Assembly (NCBI GenBank): GCA_037893245.1
Contig: JBAIAA010000074.1
Location: 744,001 to 808,000, forward strand
Length of the DNA: 64,000 bases
Direction of reading: 5' to 3'
From: Crossaster papposus
Lineage: Eukaryota > Echinodermata > Asteroidea > Velatida > Solasteridae
Shown here: positions 21,171-52,000 of the stretch, piece after piece
Numbering within the stretch: the first letter of the stretch is position 1
How the letters are laid out: each line of letters opens with the position of its first letter
Notes under the pieces: model-generated
What the model was told of the DNA's origin: nothing
The model's database searches: none
Seen by the model: the letters and a program-made list of their open reading frames with translations, nothing else
Program-made: the position numbers and the translations under genes

Positions 21171-21293
21171 TTACTTGCTTTCCATCATTTTGGCCGTCTC
21201 TTCCCGCATCTTAAACTTCTGCACCTTGCCCGTTACCGTCAGCGGGAACTCAGGCACAAAGAAAACGATCTTCGGGATCTTGAAGTGGGAAAT
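21171..21293 (-). CDS. ACSF2: ACSF2-like copy A, exon 13 (C-terminus)
   Basis: Residues 579-618: ISHFKIPK, then [15 protein letters not shown] carrying catalytic Lys601 (A10 motif), ending [10 protein letters not shown] and TAA. Acceptor CTCGCAG at 21294. About 76% identical in DNA to exon 13 of copy B by hand alignment. Confidence 0.95.
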   Translation of the reverse strand: MSHFKIPKIVFFVPEFPLTVTGKVQKFKMREETAKMMESK

Positions 21294-24200
21294 CTGCGAG
21301 AGACATGAAAAGATATTGTGTCAAATAACCTGAGCAATTTTGGAGGAGGATTTGTAAACAGCATGAGTTGTTAGAGGTGAATAGCATTCTAACTACATGT
21401 ACATTGTACATGTACAATAAGGTTAGCATGTTCTTAAAGAATTGATAAAGTTGTCACAAGTCTTCAAACAAGTTGTAAAGGAGTCATCCAAAGTCATTTG
21501 TTTTATAACGAGTATGTACATGTATATTCCTGCAACAGTACTCTTAGGAAGAAATGGTGGTGTCATTATTCAGGCATGTGAAATGTCCTCTTTTAAGCTG
21601 ATTTTCTCAGTTTTGGTTTTGATTCTCGTCCTTTTTCTTCACTTTCTGTGAACAAAAGTAAAGGAAATATCATCCTTTTCTTATTTTTTCTGGCATAGTT
21701 TCCTCATTTCCTCTTTTTTTTTTTATATTGGTAATTACTCATATGCCTGATTATTAAAGGCATGGGGAGATGTAGATTTAGGGAGGCATTTCCGTGTCCC
21801 CCCTAAACCCTAAACTAAACCCTCCGCTCCTATTTAGACGCAAAATGTTACTTTAGCAAATTAGTTTTATTTATTGATACTTTTTGGTCCAAAATATGAA
21901 AGTACCAAATTTTGTGGGGGTAGGATAAGGGAAACTCGGGTTTATTAGGCGACATTAAAGTTAAACAAATGTTGTGAACGCTCCAACGGAAATGTCTCTC
22001 AAATGACCCATTCCCAATATGGCGCTTTTAACTAAGATCAAACTGCTTTGTATGATTATTACCCCTGATCATTGAGCCATCCAGCTCGATGCAGCCATTT
22101 TGGCACAAGGCAGTTTCAAAATCAGTCATAACAACCGTGCATCTCTGCCCTTACTCCTGGGTGGGGAGAAGCAGCAAGTGATAAAGTGTCTTGCCCAAGA
22201 ACAAACACCACAACCCCAGCTGGCTAGAACTTGAATCTACAACCTGCAGAATTACCCGCAGACCACAAATTTAGTGCTTCATACATTCGCATTTTTGTAT
22301 CACTGTGGAGACATGGCTTTGTTCTCGTGTACAAAATGGTTAGAAAGTCGAGCACGTTTTTCAAAATGCTCCCATTTTAACCATAATTTTTTTCCTGGGT
22401 TGAAATTTCGACCCAATATACCCTATATTATACCCTAACCCAAACACTAACCCACATCCTAATCCTAGTTTTTGAGTAATTTAAGTAAAATCCAAAAATC
22501 TAATTCGTGAAATTCCCAGTGGAGACCTATTCATCTATAGAAATTTACCCTCCGGAGACATTTTGTCTCCATTGTACACATTGTGTTCATGTCTCCAGAT
22601 GGTACCGTATTTCGCACCATCAGGCACATAAAAGTGACACAATATTTTAAATGAACTGCAGTTTCGGTCATCTTGTATCACCTTTGACCGGACAAAAGAT
22701 CTGACATGTTTGATTTTGTAAAGGCTCTGTACGCATTCACATCATTCCGTACACTTGTACAGTTCAGCAGGTGAGATCATGCTCTTCCTCCATGGTGAAA
22801 TCTATTAGTAAAGGAACCCAATGTCGATCTAGACCCTTTTTTTCTCAAATCTTCTAAAATCTCAAGTTATCTCAAATTTCAGGCAGAGCAAATGTCACAC
22901 TGACCTCTCCTTTGCAGAAGTCTCTGATTTCGTCTTCCGTCGCCGTTTGTCCTTCCTTTAGCTTGACCCAGGCACACACTATCTCCCCAAGACGCTCGTC
23001 TGGAATGCCTATTATCTGAATTGAAACATGGTAAGCCATTGAAAAAAGAAGAAGTGCACACCTTCATGTACAATAAATAAATATCATGTTCTGTAAGTTG
23101 AGCTCCGCAAGAATTAATCGGCTTTAGCTGCAATTCACATATCGCTGTTTGTGAGTTAGCCACGCCCATAACCAGTTTGCGCCGGATGACGTATATAAAC
23201 GCAAAGTTTTTCCCAAATTCAAAACGGATGACGCATAAACACGCAACAAACAAGGCCGGAAATGTCTGTCAGCAGCGAGCAAGGCCGGAAATGCGTGGGT
23301 GTGCTTCCCGGCACTTTTGGCCTTAACCCGCTTCGGATCCAGTTTCGTTAAAAATGATCCCACCCCTCGGCTATGTGATGTTAAAACCGGCGCGAACTGG
23401 TTAAACAACTTCGCACACGTGCAGTAGCGTACAAAGGGGCCCTGCATATACACTGCATTTCAAAGCGTTTGATGCACGTGTCTCTGACAGGATATCGTAG
23501 TGGTCTTAACCAGTTCGCGCCGGGATTATTTTTAACAGAACTTGATCCGAGGCAGGTTCAGGCCGATGGTACTGGGCAGCACACACATGCATTTCCGGGC
23601 CTTGCTCGGTGCTGACAGACATTTCCGGCCTTGCTCGTGACGTGTTTATGAGTAATCCGTTTTGAATCGGGGGGAAACTTTGCGTGTATATACGTCCTCT
23701 GGCGCGAACTCGCTAAGCCGGGTTTTCATTGGACTTTTTCTTCCATGGCCTCGCAGTAACACCACGACATTCCTTTGTGTAATTCAACTGTGCATTCCCA
23801 CTTGGACTTTTATACTGCAATGTAACGCGAGACTGGCAAAATGTCACACATTGTGGGCGCTGTGCACATTCACATTTGACCTCGAGACAAAGCAGTTTAC
23901 GTGTGGTCGCGGTACTTCTACAGGGCAAGGCTGTTCCCGTTGGACTTTTCAGCGTCCCTGATAGCTTACCGCGGCTAAGCGAAAACCTTTTTTGCGACTA
24001 CTTTCGGTCTGGTAGTTTTACATCACCGCTGCGGTAAATTGACAGGGATGTTGGTATACCGTGCATTCCCATTGGATTTAATTTTTTCATTTTACAGAAA
24101 AGTTGCGGTACGTTAACCAAACAAAGTCCAATGGGAACACGGATTTTCCAACTGTGTACAAAGCATTGTAGGCATTCGCATACTAAATAGGTAGTTTGAA

Positions 24201-27200
24201 TTAAAAAAAAAACGGAAAAAAAATCATTTGAATGTCCTCGGCGTATTTCTTGGGTTCTCATTGGTACCAGTGTATTCAATTTATAATACAAAAGCCTTTC
24301 ATTTTCTACGAGTATACTCGTAGTTGCGGAACCCGGTACACCTGTTACTAACTACGACTATACTCGTAGTGAGCAGTCAACGTGTTAGTTTGTTACTTTA
24401 GACAGCTTTATAGTACCTGGACATCGGCAATTTTGGGGTGTTTGTACAGGAAGTTCTCAATCTCTACAGGATAGATGTTCTCCCCGCCTCTGATGATCAT
24501 GTCTTTACTGCGTCCTACAATTGATACATATCCTTCGTCATTCATAATGGCCATATCCCTGCACAAGCAAAGGTACAAATATCATGGTACACTGTTATTA
24601 ATATTTCTGATAATGAAACTAACGAATCTGCAAAAGCACCCCAGGATGATTTGAGGATTCCTTTGTCATCCAGTTATATAACTCTCGAATACAACTCTGT
24701 TTGCAGGATTTGGGCACTGGATCTCAGTAACAAATAACGCAAGATTTTTAAGGATTCGGGTTACATACAGTTGTAACACTTTGGAATCAGAGGTTACTGG
24801 TGTCGGTTATATTTTTGCTAGTTGTATTATTTTATTATTATTATATTTTTTTTTTGGGGGGGGGTTGCTTATCACAGATAATACAGGGATACTACATGTA
24901 CAGCGTTTTTTCCCGTACATTACGTTATGGGGACAATCCATAGGGTTTGTGTGCAAAGGGAAATCTCTCTAAACTCAAACATTCTAAAATTCTAAAAATG
25001 TTCAACATCACCCTAATTTATCTTCTACATTTTCTGTCGTTATAGTCTGACCCAATTTTACCTAATAACCCCTTTACTGAAGACCCAACGTGCTATGGGG
25101 ACACGAATCTGTGCCCACAACTTGGTTGAGGCTAGAACATAGAGTCCATTGACCATGAATCGTGCTTAGCAAAAACGGAATCGTTTACTAACCCTGTGTG
25201 GAACCATCTAGTTTTATCAATAACTTCGTCCGTCTTCTTTTGATTGTTCCAGTAGCCCATCATGGTCGTGTATCCCCGGCTGCACAGCTCACCGGACGTG
25301 TTGCGTGGAACAATCTCCCCAGTTTGCGTGTCGATGATCTTCACCTAAAAATTAGTAATCGGTAAAATCGGGTTTTCACACTGTGAACACACGGACGTAC
25401 AAACATTTCATACATACTGTGGACCTGTGAACAATTGACGCCCACAGGATACGGGAAGAGGTTAAAGATTGTTATTATTATTATTATTATATATTTTTGG
25501 TAATGAAACCAAGGATCCCTAAGAAGGTACAGTTTTAGAGGTGGGAGGAAAACCCCAGAAGATTATCCTTGGTAAAACCCACGGAGTCAGGCAGGGACTG
25601 AAAACCCAATCGACATATTGGCCCAGGCCGGATTTGAACCTGGGTCATAGTGGTGGAAGGCGAGGAAAGAACCGCTACGCCAACCTGATTCCCCTTGTGG
25701 ACTTGCGTAGTCCGTTTTGCCCTTTTTTAAAAAGAGCTTTAGAGGAAATGGGGTTTTAGGGTTATCTGTAGACAAAATAAAGGGGAACACCTGTGAGGCC
25801 TAGAATCAATATTTGGGGTTTAACAATTTTTCTTAAAGTGATAACAATTAGTATTTGGCCAACATTTTCTTAACTACCTGAAAACAAAGAAATGTCCACA
25901 GCACCTGTGGAAGGTACGATTGGGTGAACAATAATAGTTCGCGTGTGTGTCTTTTCTGCATTCGGGTACAAAACATATGGTAGGTCTTCCGAAAAAGTTG
26001 AAGTACAAACAAAAGAGGACAAAGGGGTTTTCAGGTTAGGGTCCCCGATTGGAGGTAAATACACACTTGTGTGGGTGTGTATGATCCCAGAAGAAAAAAT
26101 ATTAGATGAATTTGTTTTAGTTCACCGGCGCAACTTACTTCATTGTGGGCCGTTGCCTTCCCAACGGTCGACACCCTCGTCTCAATGGGATCGTCTCGGC
26201 GAGTTTGGAAGATGACAGGAGACACTTCTGTCAATCCATAGGCAATCTGCACCAAGGGGGAAAACAATGCGTAAGATTGGTGGGTCATGTCCGAATTATT
26301 TGGCTGCGGCTTGAAATTATGCACAAGTCTATGAAATGTAGCTGCAGCCGCAAGCATAGCCGCTAGCATAATTTCAAGTATTCGGACCTGGTGCAAACAT
26401 CCAGCTGCCACTTTGGTTTCTCCATCATAACCATCTCAATGAAAGACAATCACTGCAAGAACTTGTTAGAAAGACATGAATCTGGGACTGAGAAATATTT
26501 TCAAATTTGTTTATACAAAAAATACTTGGAAATTGCACTCGACTTTCCATAGACTCTCCTCATCTGTACACAACAAAAATAGTGGCAGCAGTATACTACA
26601 TTCCTTTCAAACATTGCTTATACTCCACGACAAAAGTATGAAAGGAAAATTCAAATGCTACCGGTAAGGCATGTCAACAAATGTGACCTGTCACCACAAT
26701 ATGAGAGTGAAGTCGGGGAATATTAAAAATTGAGATATGGGTATTTTCAAATATTTGAGAAAGAGAGCTTTTCAATGGTTGGAAACACTTAGGGATTTTG
26801 CTATAAATACATTTTACAGCACTCCAGAAAGTCATGGGTTTCACAAGTTTGTGAGAAAACTTACCAAATAAACATCTTACAATAAACATCAACAAAATAT
26901 CAAAATTTCAAAAACGTGAGATAAGGACCTAATTTTCATATTTTATTACTTAGACCACTAATGGACTTTAATCCAAACACTAACTACACAAACACTTTGC
27001 AAAATCGCGTAATTTACAAGGTTATCGATCATCTGATCTCACCCAAAAAATGGGAACATTTAGAGGAGGACTTGGGATTTCCAAATAACGAAAAATCTCA
27101 AAATTGATCACCCCTTTATATTTTGACTTTGAATGATCACATCGTGCGATTTTACTCTCATATTGTGGTGACAGGTCACAAATGGGCAAAGTAAAAAAAA

Positions 27201-30200
27201 TAAAAATTGTTTTACCCGCAACATTCATTATACATACTGTATACACTGTGTTACAAATACTAAGTCATGTGAACAATTGAAGACTTCAGACGCAAAAGCC
27301 TCCAAGTCCACTTGAGATCTTTTGTTTAAAATTAGCAATCTTTATTCGGTTTTTAAGGTTCAGGTTTAACAAATTCACTGTTTTGAGATAGCTTAAGTGT
27401 TATATTTAGCAGTTTTTAAGCAAAAACTATTTGATTATCGAATACCAGGCACGGACAGTTTTTATTTGATATCGTTATCATTTTTCATGGAAGTGGCGTT
27501 TGGCGGCTTGTTGCGCCTGAAGTCTTGGATTATAAAACACTTTGTATTCTTACACAAACATCTTTCATATTCAGTTGCGCGATGCACTGCTTCATTGTCT
27601 CGATAGGACACGGCGACCCGGCCATGATACCCGTCGACAAGCTGGAAACGTCGAACTCTGCCAGTTTGGGATGGTACAGCATATCAATGAACATGGTGGG
27701 CGTACCATAGAGAGCCGTGCATCTATGGAAGGTGATCAGTCATAAATAGGGACGAAAATAGCAGAACAACTTTGATTTGATTTGATTTATTATTAGAGAG
27801 GTTTCGCCTGCGAACGGATACGGTTAGCTTAACAGATACGTCATCAATTTTCGCAAACTTATGACGTCACAGTTCTTCACTATGCGCTAACCGTGTACAA
27901 GGCACGGATATCTCGCTCGCTACAAGTAAATATAAAACGCGTACGGATAGCTAAACGTACGCATACGCGTATCCGTTCGTGTGCGAAATCTCTCTAATGT
28001 TTCACTAACCAGTACGCGTTGGATGCTGTGTATACACGCACAGTTTGTCCGGAATTCAAAACGAATGACAGATAAACACGTCATGAGCAAAACGGGAAAT
28101 ATGTATCAGCGATCGGCTTGCAGCAAGCAAGGCCGAAAATATCAGGGTGTGCTACCCACAGATGCCGGCCTGAACCCGTCTTTGATTGAAAAAACAATCC
28201 TGCACCTGGGCCTGGTCAATGTCAAAATAATCCCAGCGCGAACTGGTTAATTAACAGAGTATAAAGCAAAGAGTGTAAAAGTGATGATTGAGGGAGGCTG
28301 GTAGAAAACTAAAGTTTGTAATTAGTTACACACAAAATTACACCCAGCTTTACCTTACATACGCACTGTGGACATTCCTTTGTCTTCGTGTAGTTAACAA
28401 ACTTTGACTAAATACTCATTTTTCTCGCTTCCCCAAAACAAATTTACCCTCAAATTTGGATTATGGGCCTCTCAGCTGTCCCTTCTATCTTTTCTATATA
28501 TAACCCTAACCCGTTTTTCCTCTAGCGCTCTTTTTCGGAAACTGAAAAACGGATTGTGGACGTGTGCAAGTCCACACACCGTAACCTCTTCCCGCATCAT
28601 GTGGACCTATATTGTTTGGAGGTCCACAGTGCGTATGCAAGACTAACTCACAAGAGTCTATGAGAAGTGGCTGCAGTCGCTACTATTGACTCGTGTGTAA
28701 TGTCAAGCCGTAGCCAAGTAATTCAGACACTGCCTTCTGGTCATTTTTGAGTCATTTTCCAAACCCAGGCCTTGTCTCTGTGAGGCTTTAGGCATGCAGT
28801 TGGGAAATGGAGGTAGAGTCGCAGAGGGAGATGGATGTGTAGAGTCACAAATGAAAATGAAGTGAGTGTTATATTGGTGATTTAAACAGCCTTGTTCCTT
28901 AATATCGTATGCAGTTTGGCAATGGAGGTAGAGTCAGAGATGAAGATGAAGCCTTATTTATTTATCAAGTATTGGTGATTTAAACAGCCTTGTTAACAGT
29001 TGACTCTCAATACAAACTCACCAAGACCCAGTGTTGTAGTCGAGTCACCTATGTCGAGTCCGAGTCCGAGTCCCGAGTCACTTGGTCCGAGTCCGAGTCC
29101 GAGTCCCGAGTCACTTGGTCCGAGTCCCAGTCCGAGTCACGAGTCACTTGTTTAAATAATTAAATAGTTAAAATACTAGTTCAGCCAGTTCACGTAGATG
29201 ACTGGATGACTATTGATCTTTTTTTAAGGTTTTACCAATACTCCTTGCCCCTTCTCCAGAATATCTTTTTATTTATTTTTTCTTCAAAATAACAAATTAT
29301 ATACTGATTTAGTTATTTCATAAAGGTAAGTAGCCAACAAGTTTTATATTTTTCGCTTGCAAAATTTGCACATCGCACTTGATTTTGAAGTTTCAAAATT
29401 TGTTTTAAAGTTGGTGTAACCAAAAGAAACAATACGAGGAACGACAGATGCCATGGTTTAAAAATTGTTGTAGCGACTAGCGAACTGACGTGACCAAGCG
29501 TGTGTGGTGGATATGGTTAAGCCGCCTATGTTTTAACGTTAAAAAGAGGTAGCGATATAGCCACAGCCAGCTAAAACCGTCATTCGGACTCCGGAGACGA
29601 ATTCCTATTTCCCTGGTAATATGCATCAAGCAGTGGCTATGGTGTTAAGGTTGACAGAATACCATCGTTAATATTGGTGTCGTGCACAATAATGCTTTTA
29701 CAGAAATATATCCCACTGTTATTATGCGTATTGAACATACACATGTACATGTACGTACGTGCGCTGTACACTACATGGCCATAGCAACACAGTAATCACG
29801 AACACTATTACTTGCAACATCAGTGTAACTGCTTATTCCGTGTGCTAAACATTAACATTCCTACATGTGCATGACGATCAGATCATTGGAATTGTTTTTA
29901 ATATTTACAAAAAACTAAAAAAGGTATTGTTGGTGAAAATACGTGACTCGAGTCACGAGTCCTCGAGGTCAAGTCCGAGTCATGGTAGTCGAGTCCGAGT
30001 CCGAGTCCGAGTCCGAGTCTTTTGCCGACGTGACTCGAGTCAAGTCCGAGTCACCAAAATTGTGACTCAAGACGGACTCGAGTCCGAGTCCTGGACTCGA
30101 GTCATACAACTCTGCCAAGACCTAGCAAAAGTGTTTGTTATATGTGACCTGTGACCTGTCACAAAATGAGCGTAAAGTCGGCAAAATCAAAGAAAGGCAT

Positions 30201-33200
30201 AGTCAAAATTGTCTCAAAAACTAATTTTGTTTTTATCTGATTGTCCTGAAAAATTGGTAATTGATTGCTGGGGATTTAGTCTTTAAAAAAACATATAATC
30301 TCAAAATCGACCACCCCTTCAAATTTTGACTTTGACTGGCGGTACTGGGAAATCACTCCGTGCGACTTTACGCTCATTTTGTGACGACAGGTCACATATC
30401 GGTTTTTGTATTAACCCTCCTATATACAGGGCAGTTACCATAGAGCTGTCAGACCTTTCAAAACCTTTCAAGTTTTCTGGACTGAAAGGTTTTGAAAGGT
30501 GAGAAAGCTGTCTGACAAAAGGAACCTATGAAAGGTTTTGAAAGGTAAAACAACTCTCTGAAGAAACAGGTGTGAGAAAAAAAATACCTTTCAAGTTTCT
30601 GGACTGAAAGGTTTTGAAAGGTGAGAAAACTGTCTGACAAAAAAACCTATGAAAGATTTTGAAATGTAAAACAACTCTCTGAACAAACTTTTGTGAAAAA
30701 AAAAAAAAACTTTCAAAAGGTTTTGAAAGGTGTAGTAGTGCAGTAGCAAAAAATTCTGGAGCGTTTTGAAAGGTTCATACTTATTGATAGCCATTTTGCC
30801 CATTAAGCAGATTTTGAAAGGTTTTGAAAGGTAAAACCATAAGAGGGTTAAGAGGTGTGCTGCTCCTATTCTCTGTGCACATAAATCTAGAGTTGGGACT
30901 GAGGCTTTATGTTTGTTATAACAAAAATTTACAGAGTTTGTATTAAAAAAAAAAGAGTCGACTATCATTAGATAGCATAAGTCCTGGATATCTATGAATA
31001 TGCATGAGTGAAGACAGGGTGTTCTAGTTCAATCCTTCTGGATCCTGTGCGAGGTGAACAAATGTGCATGCTGGTGCCAAATGGAGAATTGTGTGACATA
31101 TTTTGTGCAAGATAATATTTTTTCCCAACAAGACTGACCTCTCTGCAGCTATGGCCGCAAGGGTTGCCTCGGCCTCGAATCCTGGGGAAGGGAACACGCA
31201 GCACGAACCATGCATCATCCCACTCAGCGAACCCCCGACCATACCAAAACAATGGTACAACGGAACGGGGATGCAGATACGATGATGCTGTATCCCCCAA
31301 AAAATAAAAAATCATCAATTTAACAATCCTATTTGTTTTGAGACTAACCTCTCTTCAGCAATTGCCCGGAGAGCTGCTTCAGGCTCAAACCCAGGGGCAG
31401 GGAAGACGGCGGTGGCACCGTGCATCATACCGCACAGCGTACCCCCGACCATACCGAAGCAGTGGTACAGTGGCACAGGAACACAAATGCGATGGTGCTG
31501 GAAGAACCAAATTAATGACAACACAATACAAACTCTCTGCAGAAATTACTTAACCAGTTCACGCCGGAATTATTTTAACATCGCTGAGTCGAGGGGCGGG
31601 ATAATTTTTAACGAAACTCTTTCCGAAGCGGGTTCAGGCTGATAGTGCCGGGAAGCACACCCAGGCATTTCCGGCCTTGCTCGCTGCTGGCATACATTTC
31701 CGAACTTGAACTTGGCGTGTTTATGTGTCATCCGTTTTGAATTTTGGGAATTTGTTTGCGTTTATATACGTCTTCCGGCGCGAACTGGTTAAAGGTGGAA
31801 TTTACCTTCTGCAGCTATCTAAAAGTAGCCAACTAAAATATTTTAAGGAAGCTTAATGGTTGTAATGATTTTAAAACTGCTGTCATTTTGAAAATAAATT
31901 ACAAAAGAATGCCATTTCCAAAGATGTGTTTCTGCAAATAGTGTATGCAAGCTTTCAAATGACGCATGAATGGGTGCTTTTATTGGTTCGTTCATTATCA
32001 AGAAATAATCATATATGTGACCCGCTCCGGGAAAAGGTGACATAAGTCGCGCTATGCATTTCTGAGTAATGGCCTCTTAAAGTTAATAGGGTAAATATTT
32101 TTTTCAATTTTTTTTTTTCATTTTTTGTCTTAAATGACATCTTTAATATCAAAAGTTTCAGATTTAATTAACAAAAAGATGGAATTCAATAAATAAAGTG
32201 AAACGAAACCTTTTAAGAATGCATGGTTTCAATGTATTTTCTTAGTTTTGTTGCGTTTCGAAGCCTGTTTTCTCAGTTGTGTATTTTAAATTCCATGAAA
32301 CTCATTATGCAAAAACGTCATATCACCGGAACGGGAGGGGCTATTGAGCTGTACTATATACCAAATGAAAGCTTATATCCTGAACTTTGTAATCATCTAC
32401 ATAACTCTAATTTTATGTCACCTTTTCCTGGAGCGGGTCACATATGTTCTGTTCATCAAACAGACATGTTCTGGAACCATGTCTATGTCATGGAGGTATA
32501 AAAGGACTGTTTTATAGCTCCATGATCCATTCATTTTTTTATTGTTTGGTTAATTTCATGAATTTTTTTCTTTTTTTTCTTTGGGGGGGGGGGGGGTGTT
32601 GTTTTAGAGCACTTAACCACCTCCGTGTGTTCCCCACGCAAGCACAGTCCCATACCTTGTTCTATGATGGGGTCTAAGCAGTTTGTAGAGTTTGGCGCAC
32701 TTTTGAAGTCGATGCCTAACCAAACCATACTCACACGAAGCAACATGTGTTCATCGAACACATTTCTAAGTTAATTTGTTTTGCAGTTTCTGCATTTGTG
32801 AACCCTTTTATACCCCCTTGATGTAAAAATAAAAAAATTAAGACACCTTTTCATGAAAGCCTATATTCCATCCAATATCAAAGCAATTGTTGATGATGTT
32901 GTGATGTGTCAAAGTGGCGCCCTTTGGAAAGCCTGTAGTGCCCTGCAAAAAGAAAAGAAAAAAGTTCTTGTTTCATAATTCATTACAGAAAAGAATTTTC
33001 AAATGAAGCACAGATATCTACCAAGGCGCTACATCATTATTACCCAGTTTATTGGGCCATTGAAACATTCCAAATACCATATCAGCCCCCTACCCCTAGC
33101 AGCTTTTGTACTTGAAGTCTTCAAATATTCTTAGTTGGTTCATGAAGATAAAACTTGGAGATAAACTCCGGCCTGGTGGGCCATCTTGGCTTGTATTAAC

Positions 33201-36200
33201 CAGTTCGCGCCAGAGGACATATATACACGCAAAGTTTCCCCCAGATTCGAAAAACGGATGATGCATAAACACGTCGCGAGCAAGGCCAGAAATGTCTGTC
33301 AGCAGCGAGCAAGGCTGGAAATGCGTGGGGGTGCTTCCCAGTACTATTGACCTGAACCCGCCTCGGATCGAGTTTCGTTAAAAATAATCCCGCGCCTCGG
33401 CTCAGTGATGTGAAAATAATCCCGGAGCGAACTGGTTGAGGCCGGTTCATACTTCGCGCGGAAGTCACTGCGAATCAAATTTGTTAAGGTAACGGAGAAC
33501 GTAAAAAAACGCACAATGAAACTTCAATTGTTGACGTCATGAAATTCGCTTCGCTTTCGCGTGAAGTATGAACCGGCCTTTAGACTATACTTTTCGTTTT
33601 ACTTTTTACTCACCGAGGTAAACTGTATATTGATGGGCTCATCAAACTGTATCTTTTTCTGAAATTCGTTCCTCAGTTTCTCCTCATTACTGCCTCCCAT
33701 ATTGTACAGGTCGGCAAAGTTGATTGTCCCTGGTAAATTATCCTGGCCTCGGAAGATTGCGATCTTTAAATCTGGCACTCTGTAATTAATATTACAATAC
33801 CATCATTACCAACTCACTATTGTTTTCTGTACATAAATTTACTAAGGAAATGAAAAGGTAGGATAGATCATTCGTAATTGCTTGAATTATCAGGAATGGG
33901 TGGATTTGAGGGCTTGTATTTTATAGTAAATATTGTTTAACTGACCTGTCCGAAGTTTTACAATCATGGATGCCGAAAAAAAAGCAAGAAAAATGGCATT
34001 CATTTTCAACCGGCGTCAGGCAGTTGTCCTTGTTATTCTTGGCGATCGCCGTCTGACGATAGTGATTTTTTAGATTAAACTAAAAATGTTCGCAACAATT
34101 ACAGGATATTGCAATTATTTTGCTGGATGCCTAGAATCCTTATTTACTTTCAAATAAGTAAGATAGTAAATTGTTGTTGATATTTTTTAAATGGTGTATT
34201 CTCTCTTTAATGTCGAAGGTGGGGGCATTAACAATGTTCAGGCTCATGAGCCGGTTTTAAACATAATTGTTTAATACTAGCCAAACACATTTTTATCTCC
34301 ATTTATAAATACCTCTAGGTAAAATAGTCAAAATATTTCAACAAATTTACAAATTTACAATTTTTGTTGTTTTGAAGAAAACCCCTCATGTTATTTTATG
34401 TTCCTCATGCACATGCTGTTGTGGATAATAATGCGCGTGTTCCACTTTCTGCTCGATATGGCGTGATGTGTATACATTGGTAGTATTGCGCATGCAATGC
34501 AAAGTTTCTACCAATAAATGGGTTATGGACTTAACATCAAAGGAGTCCAAATTTAACTTGACACCGAAAAAGCATTCAAAACTGGCTGCGTCATGTTTTA
34601 TCGGCCGTTTAAACATGCCAATGTATCGGGCTCTCAACCAATAGATATAGCTAAGATTTTTCAGGTTTTTATGAATAACAAAATAATGTGCTGTCATAAA
34701 AGAACAAGTTGTCATATACCCCCAAATACCATTCCAAGTATTTAAATAACATCCACTTACTTGGCACATTCGAGCTGGCCCGGTTTAGCAGTGTCGAGCT
34801 CAGGACAGAGTTCACGAAGCAGTGCGTAGTAGTCCAATGTCCGGAAAGTCTGGTCACAGACAATGGCTTTGCAGCCCGACTACACATACAAAAATGCTTG
34901 AAATTGAAATGCTTCAAGTTAAAGCTCAGTATACATTTTGCAGCTATCCAAAAAGTAACCAACCAAAATACTGTTGAAAAGCTTACTTGATGTGAAGATA
35001 TTAATTCTTCCAAATAGGCACTTAGGGAGACAAATTAGCATAAGTTTTAAGGTAATAAGGAGACAGTGGCACTTAGGGAGACATTTCAGTGTCTCCCTAA
35101 GCGTCTAGCTACAAATGTACCCTAAAAAAAATATTGGGGAGTTATTTTTTTCCTAGAACGACAGAATTTTGGTCTAAATAGCATAAATCTCAAAGATCTT
35201 GGAGAAAAGGGTTAGGGTAAACAAGTTAGGACTGTTTTAAATTTGTGTATATCTCTATGGGATTGTCTCCCCAAACTTGTGCCTATATTGACTCTAAAGT
35301 AATTATTCTCTAAAGAAATTATTCTTTCTGGCATGCTGTTGTTTTGAAGAAAATAATAAAAGAATGTCGTTTGCAGAGACGTCATTTTTAGAAATTTCCA
35401 TCAGTAGTTGGTTTGTAAAAGCCTTGTTACAACGCACACGTGCGCGCGTGGGAACATTACTCGGTTCAGTGCGTGACGCATGCGTAGCTGCACTCGGCTG
35501 AATGAAAATGCGCCCAATCGCCAATTATGGTCGCAATTGAAATTGTGACACGATTAATTTTGAATACAATTTTATAAACAAATGTCTGTCAGCAGGGAGC
35601 AAGCCCAGAAATGCGTTGGTGTGCTTCCCGGTACCATCGGCCTGAACCCGCCTCAGATCAAGTTTCGTTAAAAACAATCCCGCGTGTCGGCTCGGTGATG
35701 TTAAAATAATCCCTGCGCGAACTTGTTAAACAAACAACAAAATTGGCCCATGCTAGGGCACACATATTATCACACTCCTAGTACAAATTTAAAGTATTCA
35801 GAAAGTATTCAGAAAGTATTCAGAAAGTATTCAGAAAGTATTCAGAAAGTATTCAGAAAGTATTCAGAAAGTATTCAGAAAGTATTCAGAAAGTATTCAG
35901 AAAGTATTCAGAAAGTATTCAGAAAGTATTCAGAAAGTATTCAGAAAGTATTCAGAAAGTATTCAGAAAGTATTCAGAAAGTATTCAGAAAGTATTCAGA
36001 AAGTATTCAGAAAGTATTCAGAATGGAGTAAGAATGGAGTAAGATGTAACTGTACCAGTTTCAGAGCGTACTCCAGTTCATGCACCCCGTAGACTGGGTT
36101 AATGTTGACCATGATAGCACCGATGCGTGATGTAGCAAACTGTGTCAGCACCCATTCTAAGGTAGAAGGCCCCCACATACCCACTCTATCCCCCCTCTTG

Positions 36201-37975
36201 ATGCCAAGGGCTAGGAGGCCGAGCTCTATCTTTTTGGTCTGAAAAATTAAGAGGAGACAAATTTTAATGCGAGTCATGTAGTGAACATGTCACACCCCAT
36301 CTTCCTATTTGAAAATAAAACATGGCTCACCCATGATTACAAAAATTCATGTGGGTCTATCATGTATGCACCATACACGTCACATCCTAGCTTCTCATTA
36401 AAAAAATAATATTTCCACAGCATGTACACAGTGATGCTAAAGTCTAAAATACAATCTTAATTTTTTTTTTTTTTTTTTTTTCTAAAAAGATAATAACATT
36501 TATCATTTTTTTCAACAAAAAAAAGAAAAAAAGAAAAGGCGGCGGCCTCCAAAAAGGAAGCGGGTGGTGACGCTAAACATTTAGCTCAGCTACCTGCAAA
36601 AACTGTATGTGATTCAAAAAGGTGTAGGATTTACAAGATGTTGATGTAGCTTACCAGAATTTCTTGGAACCATACGGCAAAAATAATAACGGTGCTACTG
36701 CACAACACCTCAATGATTCTCAAAAAATGTAAACGTTGAGAAGTTAACCCCAATAATGCCAGACGCAACACAGTGCATCAGCAAAATAAGTCTGGTGCAC
36801 TTTGATGCATTCTGCTGGCAACACCAGTGCATTTACACCACAGTCTAAGACTATTGAGAGCTAGTCCCCATTGAACAATGTCAGAGGTGGATCCTGCTGC
36901 TTTGGGTGACTAGCGACTCTGAGGCAGTTTGAGCTTGACATTTCTGACCTGATGGATTTTGCTGACCTGGGCAGGGTTTTCACTTTGGCAAATGATGCAG
37001 ATTGATGCATCTGGCAGGGTTAGGGTTAATGTAGACAAATTGTGTTGTTGTTGTTTGTTTGTTTGTTTGTTGGGGTGTTTGTTTGTTTGTTGGGGTGTTT
37101 GTTTGTTTGATTCGTTTTACTTGTTATCATTTACCTCCTCTCTAAATTCTTCAAAAGTCCTTCTTATTCCGTCTCTGACAAAGACATGTGCATCTCTGTC
37201 GGGGTATTTCTCAGTGGTTTCATCCATGATTCGTCCGATGGTCTTCCCAATCAGTGGGGTGGGTCCAGCATTGTGGAAGTAACTCAACTCTTGTTTGGAG
37301 TAGACAGAGCTTAAACAAACAGCAACAGACGTAAAAATAGGCAGTTTAATTCATGCAAGCCGGCGATACATGCACTATTTTCGATGCCTTTTTTGTTGCT
37401 GTTTAAATACACGCGACTCTGCGATGCTACATTACAGCCATATTTAGTCACAACTTTTTAATTGAAACTGTCCTTTAAATGACAATTTGTTTTAAATCAA
37501 CAAAAATCTGTAACTTTGTTTAGGGTTAACGGTTAACTTAACCTTAGTACTATGATCGACGACTGACCCCATTTATATAATATTTACAGAATTGAAGGTC
37601 AAATACCCCCCACCCCACAACTTCCCAATGACCACCCCACCCTCCTCCTCCCCCTCCCCCTCCCCATCCCCTTTATTTTGGTACAGTACAGGTGGAGGTC
37701 CAATGAACCCATCAAATGTCAATACAATGACACTGGTGAGTGGTGGCAGTGCAACGCAATAACGATGCACACGTACAATATATGTGTATACACCCACACT
37801 TTTGTACATACCTGCTGGACAAATATCTTTGATGGGTTGAAACTGTCGGTCCCCATTGCAATTTCCCCTGTTTACAAACCAGGTTCTTCACTGCATTTTC
37901 TTTCTGGGCACTTCGACGAGTCCCGATCGACTCTAAACTAGTCTTCCCGATCGCTCGCACCAAATACGCCCGCAT
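21171..37975 (-). CDS. ACSF2: ACSF2-like mitochondrial medium-chain acyl-CoA synthetase, copy A (whole gene span)
   Basis: ATP-dependent ligation of fatty acids to CoA in mitochondria; ANL superfamily. Coding exons on the minus strand: 37812-37975, 37135-37309, 36056-36238, 34761-34879, 33614-33779, 32847-32942, 31349-31497 (7a; or 31139-31287, 7b), 27554-27722, 26139-26246, 25193-25344, 24417-24558, 22905-23015, 21171-21293. All junctions have GT/AG and fit phase, giving 1,857 nt, 618 residues plus TAA (human ACSF2, from memory, about 615). Seen: Arg/Lys-rich N-terminus lacking acids (import signal, ~1-35), ATP loop [11 protein letters not shown] (268-278), YGLTEVSP (410-417), TGD (493-495), [16 protein letters not shown] (509-524), catalytic Lys601 in [10 protein letters not shown]. 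An in-frame TAA lies 15 nt upstream of the ATG. No convincing TATA box or poly(A) signal. Introns are packed with transposon copies. Tandem paralogue: 48932-64000. Confidence 0.95.
22085..22270 (-). mobile_element. SINE fragment, antisense
   Basis: Minus-strand reading shows a B-box-like GATTCAAGTTCTAGCC, then TTCTTGGGCAAGACACTTTA, a string common in tRNA-headed SINEs. In intron 12 of copy A. Confidence 0.5.
22283..22622. repeat. Dispersed repeat (GGAGACATGGCTTTGTTCTC)
   Basis: About 320 bp matching 58302-58625 almost throughout (TCGTGTACAAAATGGTTAG, AAGTCGAGCACG, GACCCAATATACCC, GTGGAGACCTATT). The two copies sit in different introns of the two paralogues, so it spread independently of the gene duplication. 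Confidence 0.7.
22905..23015 (-). CDS. ACSF2: ACSF2-like copy A, exon 12
   Basis: Residues 542-578, from [16 protein letters not shown] to RDFCKGE, part of the mobile C-terminal subdomain. Acceptor TTCAG, donor GTCAGT. 105 of 111 bases identical to copy B exon 12. Confidence 0.95.
23168..23404 (+). mobile_element. Family 1 MITE
   Basis: ATAACCAGTTTGCGCCGG to GGCGCGAACTGGTTAA in intron 11 of copy A; the left TTAA has decayed to ATAA. Confidence 0.8.
23506..23716 (-). mobile_element. Family 1 MITE
   Basis: TTAACCAGTTCGCGCCGG to GGCGCGAACTCGCTAA; the right edge is decayed. It abuts the next element. Confidence 0.75.
23713..23960. mobile_element. MITE with CATTGGACTT/AAGTCCAA(T/C)G ends
   Basis: Begins GCCGGGTTTTCATTGGACTT and ends TTCCCGTTGGACTTTT. 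The family also appears at 24056-24143, 45613-45899 and, as a fragment, 47808-47853. Confidence 0.45.
24056..24143. mobile_element. Short MITE, CCGTG...CACGG
   Basis: CCGTGCATTCCCATTGGATT at the left is inverse to AAGTCCAATGGGAACACGG at the right; 88 bp. Confidence 0.6.
24308..24371. repeat. Pair of CTACGAGTATACTCGTAG palindromes
   Basis: A perfect 18-bp palindrome at 24308-24325 and a near-perfect variant at 24352-24371, 45-65 bp downstream of the exon 11 donor in transcript sense. Function unknown. Confidence 0.7.
24417..24558 (-). CDS. ACSF2: ACSF2-like copy A, exon 11
   Basis: Residues 494-541: completes TGD (ATP ribose contact), then [16 protein letters not shown] (A8/hinge region; Lys512, Asp513) to HPKIADVQ. 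Donor GTACTA, acceptor TGTGCAG. 137 of 142 bases identical to copy B. Confidence 0.95.
25193..25344 (-). CDS. ACSF2: ACSF2-like copy A, exon 10
   Basis: Residues 444-494: [30 protein letters not shown], then WFHTG completed in exon 11. Acceptor TTTTTAG, donor GTTAGT. 149 of 152 bases identical to copy B although the flanking introns are unrelated. Confidence 0.95.
25530..25705 (-). mobile_element. tRNA-derived SINE, antisense
   Basis: Minus strand: GGTTGGCGTAGCGGTTC (A box) and CAGGTTCAAATCCGGCC (B box), followed by a body rich in GTGGGTTTT. In intron 9 of copy A. Confidence 0.6.
26139..26246 (-). CDS. ACSF2: ACSF2-like copy A, exon 9
   Basis: Residues 408-443, containing the A5 motif YGLTEVSPV that contacts the adenylate, through [12 protein letters not shown]. 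Acceptor GGTGCAG, donor GTAAGT. Only 72 of 108 bases match copy B, in sharp contrast to exon 10. Confidence 0.95.
26683..27179. mobile_element. MITE, family 4 (GTGACCTGTCA...TGACAGGTCAC)
   Basis: GTGACCTGTCACCACAATAT-GAG at the left is inverse to CTCATATTGTGGTGACAGG-TCAC at the right; 497 bp. Also at 30143-30395 and 57172-57558. Confidence 0.75.
27554..27722 (-). CDS. ACSF2: ACSF2-like copy A, exon 8
   Basis: Residues 351-407: [12 protein letters not shown] (acyl-site wall in ANL enzymes), then [13 protein letters not shown] and NMKDVC. Acceptor CCATAG, donor GTAAGA. It must be joined to either exon 7a or 7b, both ending in phase 2. Confidence 0.95.
27792..27998. mobile_element. Palindromic MITE, ATTAGAGAGGTTTCGC ends
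   Basis: ATTAGAGAGGTTTCGCCTGC and GAACGGATACG at the left are inverse to CGTATCCGTTCGTGTGCG and AAATCTCTCTAAT at the right; 207 bp, CpG-rich. Confidence 0.7.
28005..28250 (+). mobile_element. Family 1 MITE, diverged subtype
   Basis: CTAACCAGTACGCGTTGG to AGCGCGAACTGGTTAA. It shares the CAGATAAACACGTCA and ATATCAGGGTGTGCTACC variants with the copies at 51620 and 59798, so a subfamily exists. Confidence 0.7.
28358..28637. mobile_element. MITE with CATACGCACTGTGGAC ends
   Basis: CATACGCACTGTGGAC at the left, GTCCACAGTGCGTATG at the right: perfect 16-bp inverted repeats, 280 bp, no gene. A related CATACTGTGGAC fragment lies near 25410. Confidence 0.75.
29031..30113. mobile_element. Foldback element with (GAGTCC)n arms
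   Basis: Left arm AGTGTTGTAGTCGAGTC followed by GAGTCCGAGTCC arrays (29050-29150); right arm has the same arrays (29945-30105) ending GACTCGAGTCATACAACTCT. The terminal AGAGTTGTA-GAGTC signature is shared with 50369-50594 and 51793-52394. About 790 bp of AT-rich interior without a gene. Confidence 0.6.
30143..30395. mobile_element. Family 4 MITE, short copy
   Basis: GTGACCTGTGACCTGTCACA to TGTGACGACAGGTCAC; internal TGAGCGTAAAGTCGG and ACTTTACGCTCA are inverted. Confidence 0.75.
30462..30850. repeat. Tandem repeats of about 124 bp, rich in GAAAGGTTTTGAAAGGT
   Basis: CTGGACTGAAAGGTTTTG begins two near-identical units about 123 bp apart (30478 and 30600), followed by degenerate GAAAGGTTTTGAAAGGT blocks to 30850. 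Inside intron 7 of copy A. Confidence 0.7.
31139..31287 (-). CDS. ACSF2: ACSF2-like copy A, alternative exon 7b
   Basis: 149 bp, same phase as 7a (starts phase 0, ends phase 2), acceptor GGGATACAG, donor GTCAGT. Reads [16 protein letters not shown], then [16 protein letters not shown] and [17 protein letters not shown]: 38 of 49 residues equal 7a. The segment contains the PLYHCFG motif (A4), which lines the acyl pocket in related synthetases. Intact splice sites and an open frame argue against a dead duplicate. Its 3' half (PSPGFEA-ATL) resembles copy B exon 7 more than 7a does. Confidence 0.9.
31349..31497 (-). CDS. ACSF2: ACSF2-like copy A, alternative exon 7a
   Basis: Residues 302-350: [16 protein letters not shown], then [16 protein letters not shown] and [17 protein letters not shown]. 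Acceptor CTTCCAG, donor GTTAGT. Only a 61-bp intron (31288-31348) separates it from 7b. Joining both gives 298 nt, which is not a multiple of three. Confidence 0.92.
31550..31792 (-). mobile_element. Family 1 MITE, complete
   Basis: TTAACCAGTTCACGCCGG to GGCGCGAACTGGTTAA, 53 bp upstream of exon 7a in transcript sense, so it sits close to the regulated exon pair. Confidence 0.8.
32012..32446. mobile_element. MITE with TATGTGACCCGCTCC ends
   Basis: TATGTGACCCGCTCCGGGAA at the left is inverse to TTTTCCTGGAGCGGGTCACA at the right; the inverted repeat continues through AAGGTGACATAA. About 430 bp in intron 6. Confidence 0.75.
32847..32942 (-). CDS. ACSF2: ACSF2-like copy A, exon 6
   Basis: Residues 270-301, starting [15 protein letters not shown], the glycine-rich ATP-phosphate loop (A3) completed by TS from exon 5. 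Ends IGFHEK. Acceptor TTTGCAG, donor GTGTCT. Confidence 0.95.
33196..33439 (+). mobile_element. Family 1 MITE
   Basis: TTAACCAGTTCGCGCCAG to GAGCGAACTGGTTGA, right TTAA mutated to TTGA where the next element begins. Confidence 0.8.
33439..33580. mobile_element. Short MITE, AGGCCGGTTCATACTTC ends
   Basis: AGGCCGGTTCATACTTCGCG at the left is inverse to CGCGTGAAGTATGAACCGG-CCT at the right; 142 bp, 34 bp from exon 5. Confidence 0.7.
33614..33779 (-). CDS. ACSF2: ACSF2-like copy A, exon 5
   Basis: Residues 214-269: [29 protein letters not shown], then [10 protein letters not shown]. Acceptor ATTACAG completes an AAA codon split after exon 4. Donor GTGAGT. Confidence 0.95.
33853..34210 (+). mobile_element. 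Family 2 MITE, diverged
   Basis: AAAAGGTAGGATAGATCATT to AAATGGTGTATTCTCTCTTTAA in intron 4; the ends are partly decayed. Confidence 0.7.
34761..34879 (-). CDS. ACSF2: ACSF2-like copy A, exon 4
   Basis: Residues 175-213 plus two bases: [18 protein letters not shown], then [15 protein letters not shown]. Acceptor TGTGTAG, donor GTAAGT. Confidence 0.95.
35010..35290. repeat. Repeat with GCACTTAGGGAGACA/GTCTCCCTAAG
   Basis: (G)GCACTTAGGGAGACA occurs twice, with an inverse GTGTCTCCCTAAG and, at the far end, GTCTCCCCAAACTTGTGCC. A related fragment lies at 21755-21960. Probably one MITE. Confidence 0.45.
35300..35570. repeat. Dispersed repeat (GGCATGCTGT...GTGCGTGACGC)
   Basis: Shares GGCATGCTGT, AAGAATG(C/T)C, CAGTGCGTGAC and GGTCGCAATTGAAATTGTGAC blocks with 45439-46078 and, more weakly, 55930-56260. 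Confidence 0.5.
35579..35729 (+). mobile_element. Family 1 MITE, 5'-truncated
   Basis: Begins inside the element at AAATGTCTGTCAGCAGGGAG and ends TGCGCGAACTTGTTAA. Confidence 0.7.
35791..36023. repeat. 11-bp minisatellite (AAAGTATTCAG)n
   Basis: About 21 perfect copies, no spacers. It ends 32 bp from the exon 3 donor of copy A, so it begins almost at the start of intron 3 in the transcript. The open frames it creates are periodicity artefacts. Confidence 0.95.
36056..36238 (-). CDS. ACSF2: ACSF2-like copy A, exon 3
   Basis: Residues 114-174: [19 protein letters not shown], then [18 protein letters not shown] and HELEYALKL. Phase 0 at both ends. Acceptor TTTTCAG, donor GTACAG. Nearly identical to copy B (about 6 differences in 165 bp) except its first 18 transcript bases, where half differ. 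Confidence 0.95.
37045..37112. repeat. (GTTT)n with TTGGGGTG interruptions
   Basis: Simple repeat starting 22 bp downstream of the exon 2 donor in transcript sense; contains two 24-bp units of GTTTGTTTGTTGGGGT type. Confidence 0.8.
37135..37309 (-). CDS. ACSF2: ACSF2-like copy A, exon 2
   Basis: Residues 55-113: [32 protein letters not shown] and [10 protein letters not shown]. Acceptor TGTTTAAG completes the codon split after exon 1; donor GTAAAT. Confidence 0.93.
37812..37975 (-). CDS. ACSF2: ACSF2-like copy A, exon 1 (start and import signal)
   Basis: Starts at the first ATG after an in-frame TAA (37991-37993). The first 35 residues, beginning [18 protein letters not shown], hold many Arg/Lys and one acid, as expected of a mitochondrial presequence; ends QRYLSS plus two bases, donor GTATGT. 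Confidence 0.88.
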
Positions 37976-38122: not shown

Positions 38123-38380
38123 ACGGCGTTATATCGCCGTACTGTTGCGTTATATCGCCGTACTATTGCGTTATATCGCCGTACTATTGCGTTATATCGC
38201 CGTACTATTGCGTTATATCGCCGTACTATTGCGTTATATCGCCGTACTATTGCGTTATATCGCTGTACTATTGCGTTATATTGCTGTATTTGTATTGCGT
38301 TATATCGCCGTATTTTTATTGCGTTATCGCCGTATTTGTATTGCGTTATATCGCCGTATTTTATTGCGTTATATCGCCGG
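38123..38380 (+). repeat. 21-bp tandem array, left arm
   Basis: Seven or eight near-perfect units followed by degenerate units in which CTA is replaced by TTT(G)TA. Confidence 0.9.
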
Positions 38381-40180: not shown

Positions 40181-40432
40181 TAACGCAATAGTACGGCGAT
40201 AACACAATAAAAAATACGGCGATATAACGCAATAAAAATACGGCGATATAACGCAATAAAAATACGGCGATATAACGCAATCAATACGGAGATTTAACGC
40301 AATAAAAATACGGCGATATAACGCAATAGTACAGCGATATAACGCAATAGTACGGCGATATAACGCAATAGTACGGCGATATAACGCAATAGTACGGCGA
40401 TATAACGCAACAGTATGGCGATATAACGCCGT
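40181..40432 (-). repeat. 21-bp tandem array, right arm
   Basis: The same unit in reverse complement, degenerate units facing inward, mirror image of the left array. Confidence 0.9.
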
Positions 40433-48931: not shown

Positions 48932-49054
48932 CTACACAATGCCCATTATTCTAACCATCTCTTCTCGCATTTTTACCTTCTGCACTTTTCCTGTTACAGT
49001 CAGCGGGAACTCGGACACGAAGTGAACGATCTTGGGGATATTGAAGTGAGCAAT
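48932..49054 (-). CDS. ACSF2: ACSF2-like copy B, exon 13
   Basis: [26 protein letters not shown] with the catalytic Lys, ending MVRIMGIV and TAG. Acceptor CCCTGCAG. Confidence 0.94.
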
Positions 49055-52000
49055 CTGCAGGGACAAGTAATAAATGGTAGGTTGGTTGCTGTCATTTCAG
49101 TAACCACCAGTGATGTCGGGATGTCTCGAGACCTGGTCTCGGTCTCGGGACCTTTTTTTAAGTCTCGGTCTTGGTCTTGTCCTAGCAAAATCTCGGGTCT
49201 CAGAGGGGCAGTCTCAAATGTGAAGGTCCTGGTCTCGATGCCACAGTCTCTGGTTTTACACTCGAGACCCGTCGAGAGCACAGCAAAATATGTTGCACCA
49301 CACAAATTACGTTGCACCACAAAAATCTAGTCTTGATTCCGAGGACAGAACAGAAAACTTAAAGGTGCAAACATCCAAATACCTTACTTGACTGTAAGTG
49401 AAAAAAAGTGAATAAATTCACCTTAAAGGTAGGATACACCATTTGTAGATATCGAAAATATTTAATACCGAATTATTAAGAAATATCTTACTCATTTGAA
49501 AGTAAATAATGATTCAAGGCATCCAGCAAAATGATTGCACTAGATATTCTGTAATTATTTCGAAAAATTAAAATTTATAAAGAAAAAATTGCAACAAAGA
49601 AACATCAACACTGACCTCTCCTTTGCAAAAGTCTCTGATTTCGTCTTCCGTCGCTGTTTGTCCTTCCTTTAGCTTGACCCAGGCACACACTATCTCCCCA
49701 AGACGCTCGTCTGGAACACCTATCACCTTCATTATAAAGAAAAGCCAATACAACAAATAACAACAGTGGTTATAGACAGTGGTTATCGATGAACGAATCC
49801 TTGATATTGCCAGGGGCCAATTTCATAGAGCTGCTTAACCAGTTCGCGCTGGGATTATTTTAACATAACCGAGCCGAGGTGCGGGATTATTTTTAACAAA
49901 ACTCGATCCGAGGCGGGTTCAGGCCGATGGTACCGGGAAGAACACCCACACATTCCCGGCCTTGCTCGCTACTGACAGATATTTCCGGCCTTGCTCGTGA
50001 TGTGTTTATACGTCATCCGTTTTGAATCTGGGGAAAACTTTGCGTGTATATACGTCCTCCGGCGCGAACAATTCCTTGAGCACAAAACATAATTGCTTAG
50101 TAAAACCAGCTTACCAGCATAACTCCAAGATATGGATATTGTTTGTGATTGGTACTTAGCTGTTGTTAGCTTAGCATTAACAGTCGCATGGAATTTTTGC
50201 TCTTTACCTGATTTATTAAGCAAGGGTTTTTGTGCTTGAGCAAAATTGTGTGCTAAAAGCAGCTCTATGAAATTGGGCTGAGGAGAAAAGCTGATATCTT
50301 ACTAAAGAAATACATTTAGTAGGACAAATAGGGCAGATTGTGCCTTTGATGATACAAGCATACAATTTGCAGGGATGTAGTCGAGTCCATCACAAGTCCC
50401 TGCAAGTCCTTGCAAGTCCTTGCAAGTCCATCACAAGTCCTCCAGTTCCAATTCAAAAGCAAAATTCAATGACAAAAGCATTCCTTTGTCATTGTTCATC
50501 TAGTTACTTGTGACTGCCTTTATGAAGGGACTTGTGACTGGCTTCACGAAAGGACTTGTGAACGGACTTGCAGGGACTCGACTACAACTCTGATAATTTG
50601 GCACACAGTCAGAGTATGTCATGAGAAAGATATTTGGATATAGGGCTATCGCAGATTTATCTCTGAAAAAATATCTAGGTAAAATAACATTTTTGAAAAT
50701 TGTGAAATTTGTTATTGTACCTATATATTTCTTGTGAATTCTCCCTATATTCCGTGAATGGGTTCAAATCAACTAGTCTAGTTTCCTAATCTGATAATTC
50801 CAAAATCGGATAAATTACTCTGTTTTGTCTGAAGGAATTCATTTGTTTCTTGGTTTTTCCAGCATCTTTGATCACAATACTTAAAGGTAGGATACACCAT
50901 TTACAGATATCGAAAATATTTACTACCGAATTATTAAGAAATATCTTACTCATTTGAAAGTAAATAATGATTCTAGGCTTCCAGCAAAAGGATTGCAATA
51001 GATATCCTGTATAGTGTAATTATTCTGAAAAATATAATTTTATAAAGAAAAATTTGCAATCGCCTTCCGGCGATCGCAAAAAAACACAAAAATAACATAA
51101 AAATAACTGCTCGACGCTGGTTGAAAACAAATGCTGTTTTTCGTGCTTTTCTCGGAATTCATGATTGTAAAACTTTGGACAGGTCAGTTAAACAATATTT
51201 AATATGAAAAATACAACCCCCCAAAAAAAATCCACCCATTCATGATAATTCAAGCAATTACCAATGGTGTATCCTACCTTTAAAATATGCATCCACTAAT
51301 TCATATCCACCCAAAGCAAATGGTGTATACTAATTAAAACTCTAAAATACTCCTACACAACAAGGTTAGGATAGCCCTGCGATACAATGTACCTGGACAT
51401 CGGCAATTTTGGGGTGTTTGTACAGGAAGTTCTCAATCTCTACAGGATAGATGTTCTCCCCGCCTCTGATGATCATGTCTTGACTGCGTCCTACAATTGA
51501 TACATATCCTTCGTCGTTCATCACGGCAATATCCCTGAAGTTGGGAAGAACATAAAAGTGAACCAGTTGTTAATATTTCCAAAATGATTTGAAAGGCTAT
51601 GCCAAACTTGAATGACTGCTTAACCAGTTTACGTTGGATAATGTGTATACACACACAAAAATTTCAGGAAATCTAAACGGACGACAGATAAACACGTCAC
51701 GATCAAGGCCAAAATTATCTGTAAGCAATCGGCTCGCAGCGAGCGAGGCTGGATATATCAAGGTGTGCTAGCCACAAATGCCGGCCTGAAAATGCAGAGT
51801 TGTATTCGAGTCCCTGCAAGTCCACCACAAGTCATTCAGTCTCAAGTCAAGTCACTAGCTATTCAAATGAACTTGTAACAAAAGCATTATTTGTCATTGT
51901 TCAACCAGTTACTTGCGACTGGCTTTATGAAAAGACTTGTGACAGGACTTGTGACAGGACTTGTGACAGGACTTGTGACAGGACTTGTGACTGGCCTTGT

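Follow-up and report, generated by a model that had tools for sequence, protein, structure and literature searches.

Gene A, an ACSF2-like gene on the minus strand of the 64,000-nucleotide stretch of Crossaster papposus DNA analysed here (the window), contains two homologous versions of its exon 7, 7a and 7b, arranged in tandem. The pair probably represents an ancient tandem duplication of exon 7 that has been kept as a mutually exclusive exon pair in this echinoderm gene, and from the sequence we infer that both copies are used in RNA. In the proposed mechanism, exon 6 would be joined to either 7a or 7b, and the chosen copy to exon 8. The two resulting enzymes would be 11 residues apart, with ten of the differences behind an unchanged gate/contact motif. 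The 61-nt intron between the copies would hold its candidate branch points about 44 nt or less from the 7a donor, too close for both halves of the spliceosome. As a second safeguard, products joining 7a to 7b, or exon 6 to exon 8, would be out of frame and degraded. Mutually exclusive splicing is considered the most likely outcome because of the short distance to the branch points together with the premature stop on double inclusion.

Two ACSF2-like genes in tandem

Gene A was traced from exon 2 to exon 13 (37289 to 21171, minus strand; Table 1); exon 1 and a targeting peptide were not found among the ATG frames listed. Its predicted product is an AMP-binding (ANL) acyl-CoA synthetase. Both isoforms carry PF00501 and PF13193 above cut-off (296/74 and 289/74 bits), and ACSF2 and the bacterial PRK12583 fatty-acid CoA ligases likewise have full AMP-binding and C-terminal domains. 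PRK12583 (NF009233) is also the best NCBIfam model for both genes of the locus, at scores below its cut-off of 832 bits (756.8 bits for gene A over exons 2-13, without exon 1, and 717.1 bits for gene B over exons 3-13). The term ACSF2-like, chosen in the preliminary description, thus fits as a family label on the basis of the two Pfam domains and of the closest, if sub-threshold, model. Identity to bacterial relatives, taken as the best 80 of 589 sequences seeded on KKIQFDE and YHCFGMV, is 50-56%. Identity to what we take to be the human ACSF2 sequence is 47%.

The tandem paralogue, gene B, had escaped the preliminary description. A match to its exon 2 lies just outside the window, and its exons 3-13, 11 exons in all, have the same lengths as those of gene A when either 7a or 7b is counted as exon 7. 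Among at least 33 matches to the ACSF2-like query in the 1.02-Gb genome, A and B were the only ACSF2-like loci found, the remaining matches being 24-36% identical. Comparison of positions 30000-33000 with phage records by megablast gave no match, as expected.

Table 1. Features of the ACSF2-like locus, in window coordinates
Feature	Position	Strand	Remarks
Gene A exon 2	37135..37289	-	
Gene A exon 3	36056..36238	-	
Gene A exon 4	34761..34879	-	
Gene A exon 5	33614..33779	-	
Gene A exon 6	32847..32942	-	P-loop; ends in phase 0
Gene A exon 7a	31349..31497	-	149 nt, phase 0 to 2, 49 residues
Intron 7a-7b	31288..31348	-	61 nt; candidate branch points TTGAT and TTTAT
Gene A exon 7b	31139..31287	-	149 nt, phase 0 to 2, 49 residues
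Gene A exon 8	27554..27722	-	
Gene A exon 9	26139..26246	-	
Gene A exon 10	25193..25344	-	
Gene A exon 11	24417..24558	-	
Gene A exon 12	22905..23015	-	
Gene A exon 13	21171..21293	-	stop TAA
12-nt perfect complement	31525..31536 with 30933-30944	-	28-39 nt before 7a; in the intron after 7b
Gene B exons 3-13	48932..63479	-	tandem paralogue
Gene B single exon 7	59297..59445	-	49 residues

Two intact versions of exon 7

The preliminary description had reported two exons of exactly 149 bp, both running from phase 0 to 2, both with GT/AG sites and lying 61 bp apart; the coordinates and splice sites agree with this. The donors read GTTAGT (7a) and GTCAGT (7b), and the acceptors end in ...TTCTTCCAG and ...GGGGGATACAG, respectively. 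At the DNA level, 109 of 149 nt are identical (73.2%), and the 40 differences are distributed over codon positions 1, 2 and 3 as 11/4/25. At the protein level, 38 of 49 residues are the same, and a recount of the substitutions returned the 11 given earlier. The frame is open both in 6-7a-8 and in 6-7b-8, the first base of exon 8 completing an Arg codon after either copy. Use of both exons had been proposed to shift the frame and to meet a TGA at codon 22, and the first stop in 6-7a-7b-8 is indeed a TGA at the 22nd codon when the 7a-7b junction codon is counted as the first. The frame is also broken when both are skipped, as had been claimed, the direct 6-8 join running into a stop as well.

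When used to search the 1.02-Gb assembly, 7a and 7b retrieve each other (E 1e-21 to 2e-21), and the sole further match reported genome-wide is exon 7 of gene B; three candidates passed a first look in each search. The resemblance of the two exons is far from chance. Mutually exclusive exons have been recognized by similar length, compatible splice sites and reading frame, and homology, with exons of tandem gene duplicates named as a class of false positives (PMC3228551). Measured against these points of that source, 7a and 7b have 149 nt each, GT-AG sites with the same phases and open frames with exons 6 and 8, and homology in both DNA and protein. Both are located between the single exons 6 and 8 of gene A, while gene B lies elsewhere with exons of its own.

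Selection on both copies and age of the duplication

Estimates by NG86 gave dN 0.137 and dS 2.98 between 7a and 7b, the latter being saturated. In neutral simulations started from 7a with an equal number of differences, the mean was 24.4 residue changes, and 11 or fewer changes without a stop were obtained in 0 of 5000 simulations per set-up, the three set-ups starting from 7a, starting from exon 7 of gene B, or treating only half of the 7a/7b differences as neutral. On this evidence 7b very probably functions as a coding exon. Because stop-free outcomes were common among the neutral simulations (45% from 7a and 40% from exon 7 of gene B), the lack of a stop does not on its own speak for 7b. 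A branch codon model with three free omegas returned 0.10 for 7a and 0.105 for 7b. The test against omega = 1 gave a rejection for 7a (p 0.0004) and a weak one for 7b (p 0.03), with p 0.06 for 7b in a two-omega model; the omega of gene B exon 7 was 0.43, and omega = 1 was not rejected (p 0.71). Among the best 80 of the 589 bacterial relatives, 12 positions of exon 7 are invariant, seven of them inside a search seed, and neither 7a nor 7b departs from any of the 12. Exon 7 of gene B (59445-59297) is altered at two positions that are invariant in the same 80 sequences (P9T and L21Q). By this measure gene A keeps two clean versions while gene B drifts, and gene B has possibly acquired a relaxed or changed function.

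The divergence between genes A and B provides a scale for the age of the pair. The unconverted exons 4, 5, 6, 8, 9 and 13 are 66.7-76.4% identical between the genes, and since 7a and 7b are 73.2% identical, the exon duplication is estimated to be about as old as the gene duplication. Over exons 4-9 and 13, identities between A and B are 67-79%. Exons 3, 10, 11 and 12 of gene A are 92-98% identical to their counterparts in gene B (63479-63297, 52907-52756, 51534-51393 and 49726-49616), a near-identity that is likewise absent from the preliminary description. With dS at 0.055-0.16 in these four exons, the two genes seem to exchange sequence, apparently by patchy gene conversion between the tandem paralogues; for the other exons compared, dS is 0.88-2.7 or too high to compute. 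Searches with blastn (word 7) and tblastn revealed no second exon 7 or remnant of one in gene B within the window. Gene B may have lost 7a, or 7b may have arrived from gene B, and these are two candidate histories of the pair.

Predicted control of splicing

For some invertebrates, an intron of about 60 nt is a routine splicing substrate. Apart from the one between 7a and 7b, 21 introns of genes A and B measure 213-3841 nt, and the gaps between myosin exons in the same genome (n = 16) are at least about 104 nt. The myosin sample consisted of 91 matches that yielded 16 usable pairs, the gap being the distance between match ends, such that a short read-through intron inside one match would be missed. 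In the 61-nt intron, the YUNAY motif places candidate branch point adenosines at +34 (TTGAT, 27 nt from the 3' splice site) and +44 (TTTAT, 17 nt), and no match to the looser NUNAN motif lies farther than +44. In human exon pairs, a distance of less than 50 nt between donor and branch point is regarded as potential steric interference, and a survey of 629 human clusters counted 57 (9%) below 50 nt (PMC5740500). The distance of 44 nt or less from donor to predicted branch point compares with a limit of about 50 nt that is a vertebrate one (PMC5740500, PMC7969005). The earlier suggestion that the 61-bp intron may be too short for efficient splicing is borne out in part: the predicted branch points and the status of the intron as the shortest sampled speak for it, but the limit is that of vertebrates, and we infer the steric block from the distances.

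Joint inclusion shifts the frame and leads to a premature stop, and decay of the resulting transcript is predicted. The splice sites give no sign of a U2/U12 incompatibility, as no U12 consensus was seen at either donor. The 61-nt intron displays no special RNA fold (z -0.51), and its pairing with the flanks is at chance level (66 and 101 of 200 shuffles). A 12-nt perfect complement connects the introns on either side of the pair (Table 1). Such a pairing arose in 1 of 300 shuffles and is thus rarer than those of the 61-nt intron, but it was chosen out of three comparisons, and near-copies of the word with at most one mismatch number five in the window against 0.61 expected. As a lead only, RNA pairing through this complement could help to mask 7a.

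What the exchange alters in the enzyme

The 11 substitutions from 7a to 7b are V6I, T20S, C22S, A28S, T29C, A30C, A34S, P39A, A42T, R44A and E48A; the gate/contact motif PLYHCFGMV is the same in both. A model of a bacterial relative was used for secondary structure (mean pLDDT 87, and 77-78 over residues 241-260), with an offset of 238 in the numbering, anchored on the invariant His250 as position 12. In this model, exon positions 14-26 are predicted to form a helix, 29-32 a strand and 39-48 a helix. Apart from V6I, two substitutions (20, 22) would then fall in the rear half of the pocket helix, four (28, 29, 30, 34) in or near the strand after it, and the rest (39-48) in the helix that comes next. 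Contact and gate residues have been described at the alignment indices 373, 375, 378 and 381, corresponding to the CoA-channel His/Trp, luciferase Phe247, Thermus Trp234 and luciferase Thr251 (PMC6122825). By motif alignment to that source, they map to exon positions 12, 14, approximately 16 and approximately 18, all of which are unchanged between 7a and 7b. The idea that the exchange alters the acyl pocket therefore stands only in part: the gate/contact segment is indeed encoded by the exon, yet the aligned contact and gate residues themselves are the same in both versions. Position 22, one turn past position 18 by helix periodicity, could line a deeper part of the pocket, whereas position 20 would not.

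Both alternative residues occur in the best 80 of the 589 bacterial relatives at 8 of the 11 differing positions, so many of the changes may be neutral. The exceptions in these 80 are position 22, where Ser is unseen, position 30, where neither Ala nor Cys occurs and Met is found in 68, and position 42, where Ala is unseen. Since residues at 22 and 30 are unseen in the bacterial relatives, a shift in substrate is possible and may be centred on these two positions. It is also possible that the two are equivalent enzymes with different expression. No solved ACSF2 was present among the 60 PDB sequences listed of 230.

Alternative explanations

One copy, most likely 7b, could be a remnant of the duplication that is dead or scarcely used, and the fact that gene B manages with one exon 7, with no remnant of a second copy in the window, is in line with this. 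We consider it improbable, as both copies have kept frame, exact length, splice sites and most residues despite near-saturated synonymous change; none of the 5000 simulations reproduced this conservation, and omega = 1 is rejected for 7b at p 0.03, a modest rejection that goes with p 0.06 in the model with two omegas. A further possibility is that the pair acts as an on/off switch, inclusion of both exons or of neither giving a premature stop and less enzyme while the coding versions are equivalent. Double inclusion and double skipping do both give stops, and the bacterial relatives that hold both residues at 8 of 11 positions (best 80 of 589) are compatible with many changes being neutral. 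Such a switch is nevertheless quite unlikely, because double inclusion is expected to be rare with an intron of 61 nt and because the long conservation of residues in both copies exceeds the needs of a poison exon. That diverged haplotypes or paralogues were merged in one contig by the assembly is scarcely credible: tandem paralogues are present at the locus, but the window is free of Ns, the exons differ by 27%, which is beyond ordinary allelic difference, and 7a and 7b follow each other between an exon 6 and an exon 8 that are each single, while gene B is a separate gene.

A different question, concerning origin and not function, is whether recombination between the tandem genes carried 7b out of gene B into gene A, which would make the pair a by-product of exchange and not of a local exon duplication. 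Exon 7b is nearer to exon 7 of gene B (78.5% identical, dS 0.96) than to 7a (73.2%, dS 2.98), and the near-identical exons 3, 10, 11 and 12, set among exons that are far apart, indicate that exchange occurs. We nonetheless find this origin doubtful. The identity of 7b with exon 7 of gene B is barely above that of the other unconverted exons, no significant mosaic break was detected inside exon 7 (p 0.27), and inspection by eye shows no similarity in the 61 nt on either side except for the initial eight or nine bases of the intron, shared by 7a, 7b and exon 7 of gene B. By either route, the pair is best read as mutually exclusive. What holds of this claim, as made in the preliminary description, is a tandem exon duplication with the expected hallmarks, the conservation of both copies and the shortest intron sampled, while exclusive use is predicted.

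Relation to known exon pairs

The closest precedent is found in the gate exons of mammalian ACSL1 and ACSL6, a mutually exclusive pair that covers the gate motif, comprises 26 residues and carries a Tyr/Phe gate (PMC1543647, PMC2868784). The ACSL6 isoforms are described there as differing at 11 residues, the same number as in 7a/7b, and as having a roughly 10-fold difference in activity with oleate. The two systems share an exclusive pair, the enzyme superfamily and an exon placed over a (V/L)PLxH gate motif. Against this, the ACSL exons exchange the aromatic gate residue (Y/F) before LPLAH within their 26 residues, whereas 7a and 7b have 49 codons and 2 nt, start 8 residues before PLYH, leave the motif unchanged and vary mainly behind it; VPLYH and the residues preceding it are the same save for V6I. 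ACSL forms without both exons are also reported in these sources, whereas skipping both in gene A breaks the frame. As boundaries and enzyme family differ, an independent origin of the two pairs is likely, and with the gate unchanged as well, the gene A pair does not belong to the ACSL gate exons and can at most act in a similar way to their switch. Exons 4a/4b of OGDH offer another parallel, being homologous exons of a metabolic enzyme separated by a short intron; in human OGDH the branch points are 25-41 nt from the donor, under the steric limit (PMC7969005). OGDH is a different enzyme, and the branch points and exclusivity in gene A are predicted ones.

No report of an exon pair of this kind in ACSF2 was found in the open-licence literature. 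The main text of PMC5740500 contains no words beginning with 'ACS', and neither ACSF2 nor ACSL is mentioned in the main text of PMC9741552 or of PMC9013439. The gene A pair would be a new instance of the already known device of exclusive exons. One tentative idea is that the exon of the PLxH gate segment was turned into an exclusive pair by duplication twice independently, in the ACSL genes of mammals and in an echinoderm ACSF2-like gene. This segment would then be a recurrent site at which splicing tunes the choice of fatty acid, and two solutions would coexist in the echinoderm, with gene B having one version and gene A the exon pair.

If both forms are made, tissue or stage could determine which version of a single fatty-acid activating enzyme is produced, and a second, apparently independent case would stand beside ACSL1/ACSL6. 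Exons 7a and 7b also constitute a clean 11-residue variant pair for studying the influence of residues behind the gate on acyl preference, and at this one locus an exon duplication can be compared with a gene duplication in a natural setting.

Further observations on the window and the assembly

An element at 31550-31792, 53 nt upstream of 7a, has 20-nt inverted terminal repeats (TTAACCAGTTC...GGAA, 95% complementary), and pieces related to it are dispersed across the window. Tandem repeats were seen in introns of both genes. Intron 3 of gene A contains 21 copies of the 11-nt unit AAAGTATTCAG with 100% matches (35791-36023), and intron 10 of gene B contains 36.5 copies of a 12-nt unit with 96% matches (51934-52371). 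Two arrays of 21-nt units are located about 2 kb apart at 38126-38379 and 40181-40429; their units, GCGTTATATCGCCGTACTATT and TAACGCAATAGTACGGCGATA, look related in opposite orientation. On the plus strand, a glutamine-rich open frame of 954 codons (8036-10900) appears Mastermind-like by eye and has no Pfam match. Another contig of the assembly has a cox1 with 13 TGA codons when read by the standard code. With TGA read as Trp and AGA as a sense codon, this cox1 stays open for 518 codons, and AAA occupies sites where animal COX1 has Asn (FSTNHKDIG, YNVIVTAHA, FGNWLIP), which fits the echinoderm code. A frame that looks nad1-like by eye and three of four tRNAs detected upstream of cox1 are on the opposite strand, an arrangement seen in starfish; the mitochondrial sequence thus points to an echinoderm, probably a starfish. 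Elsewhere in the same assembly, a separate contig of more than 5 Mb carries three long acyl-CoA synthetase frames lacking introns, as well as three cox1 matches in frames without stops under the standard code, and is probably derived from a bacterial symbiont or contaminant.
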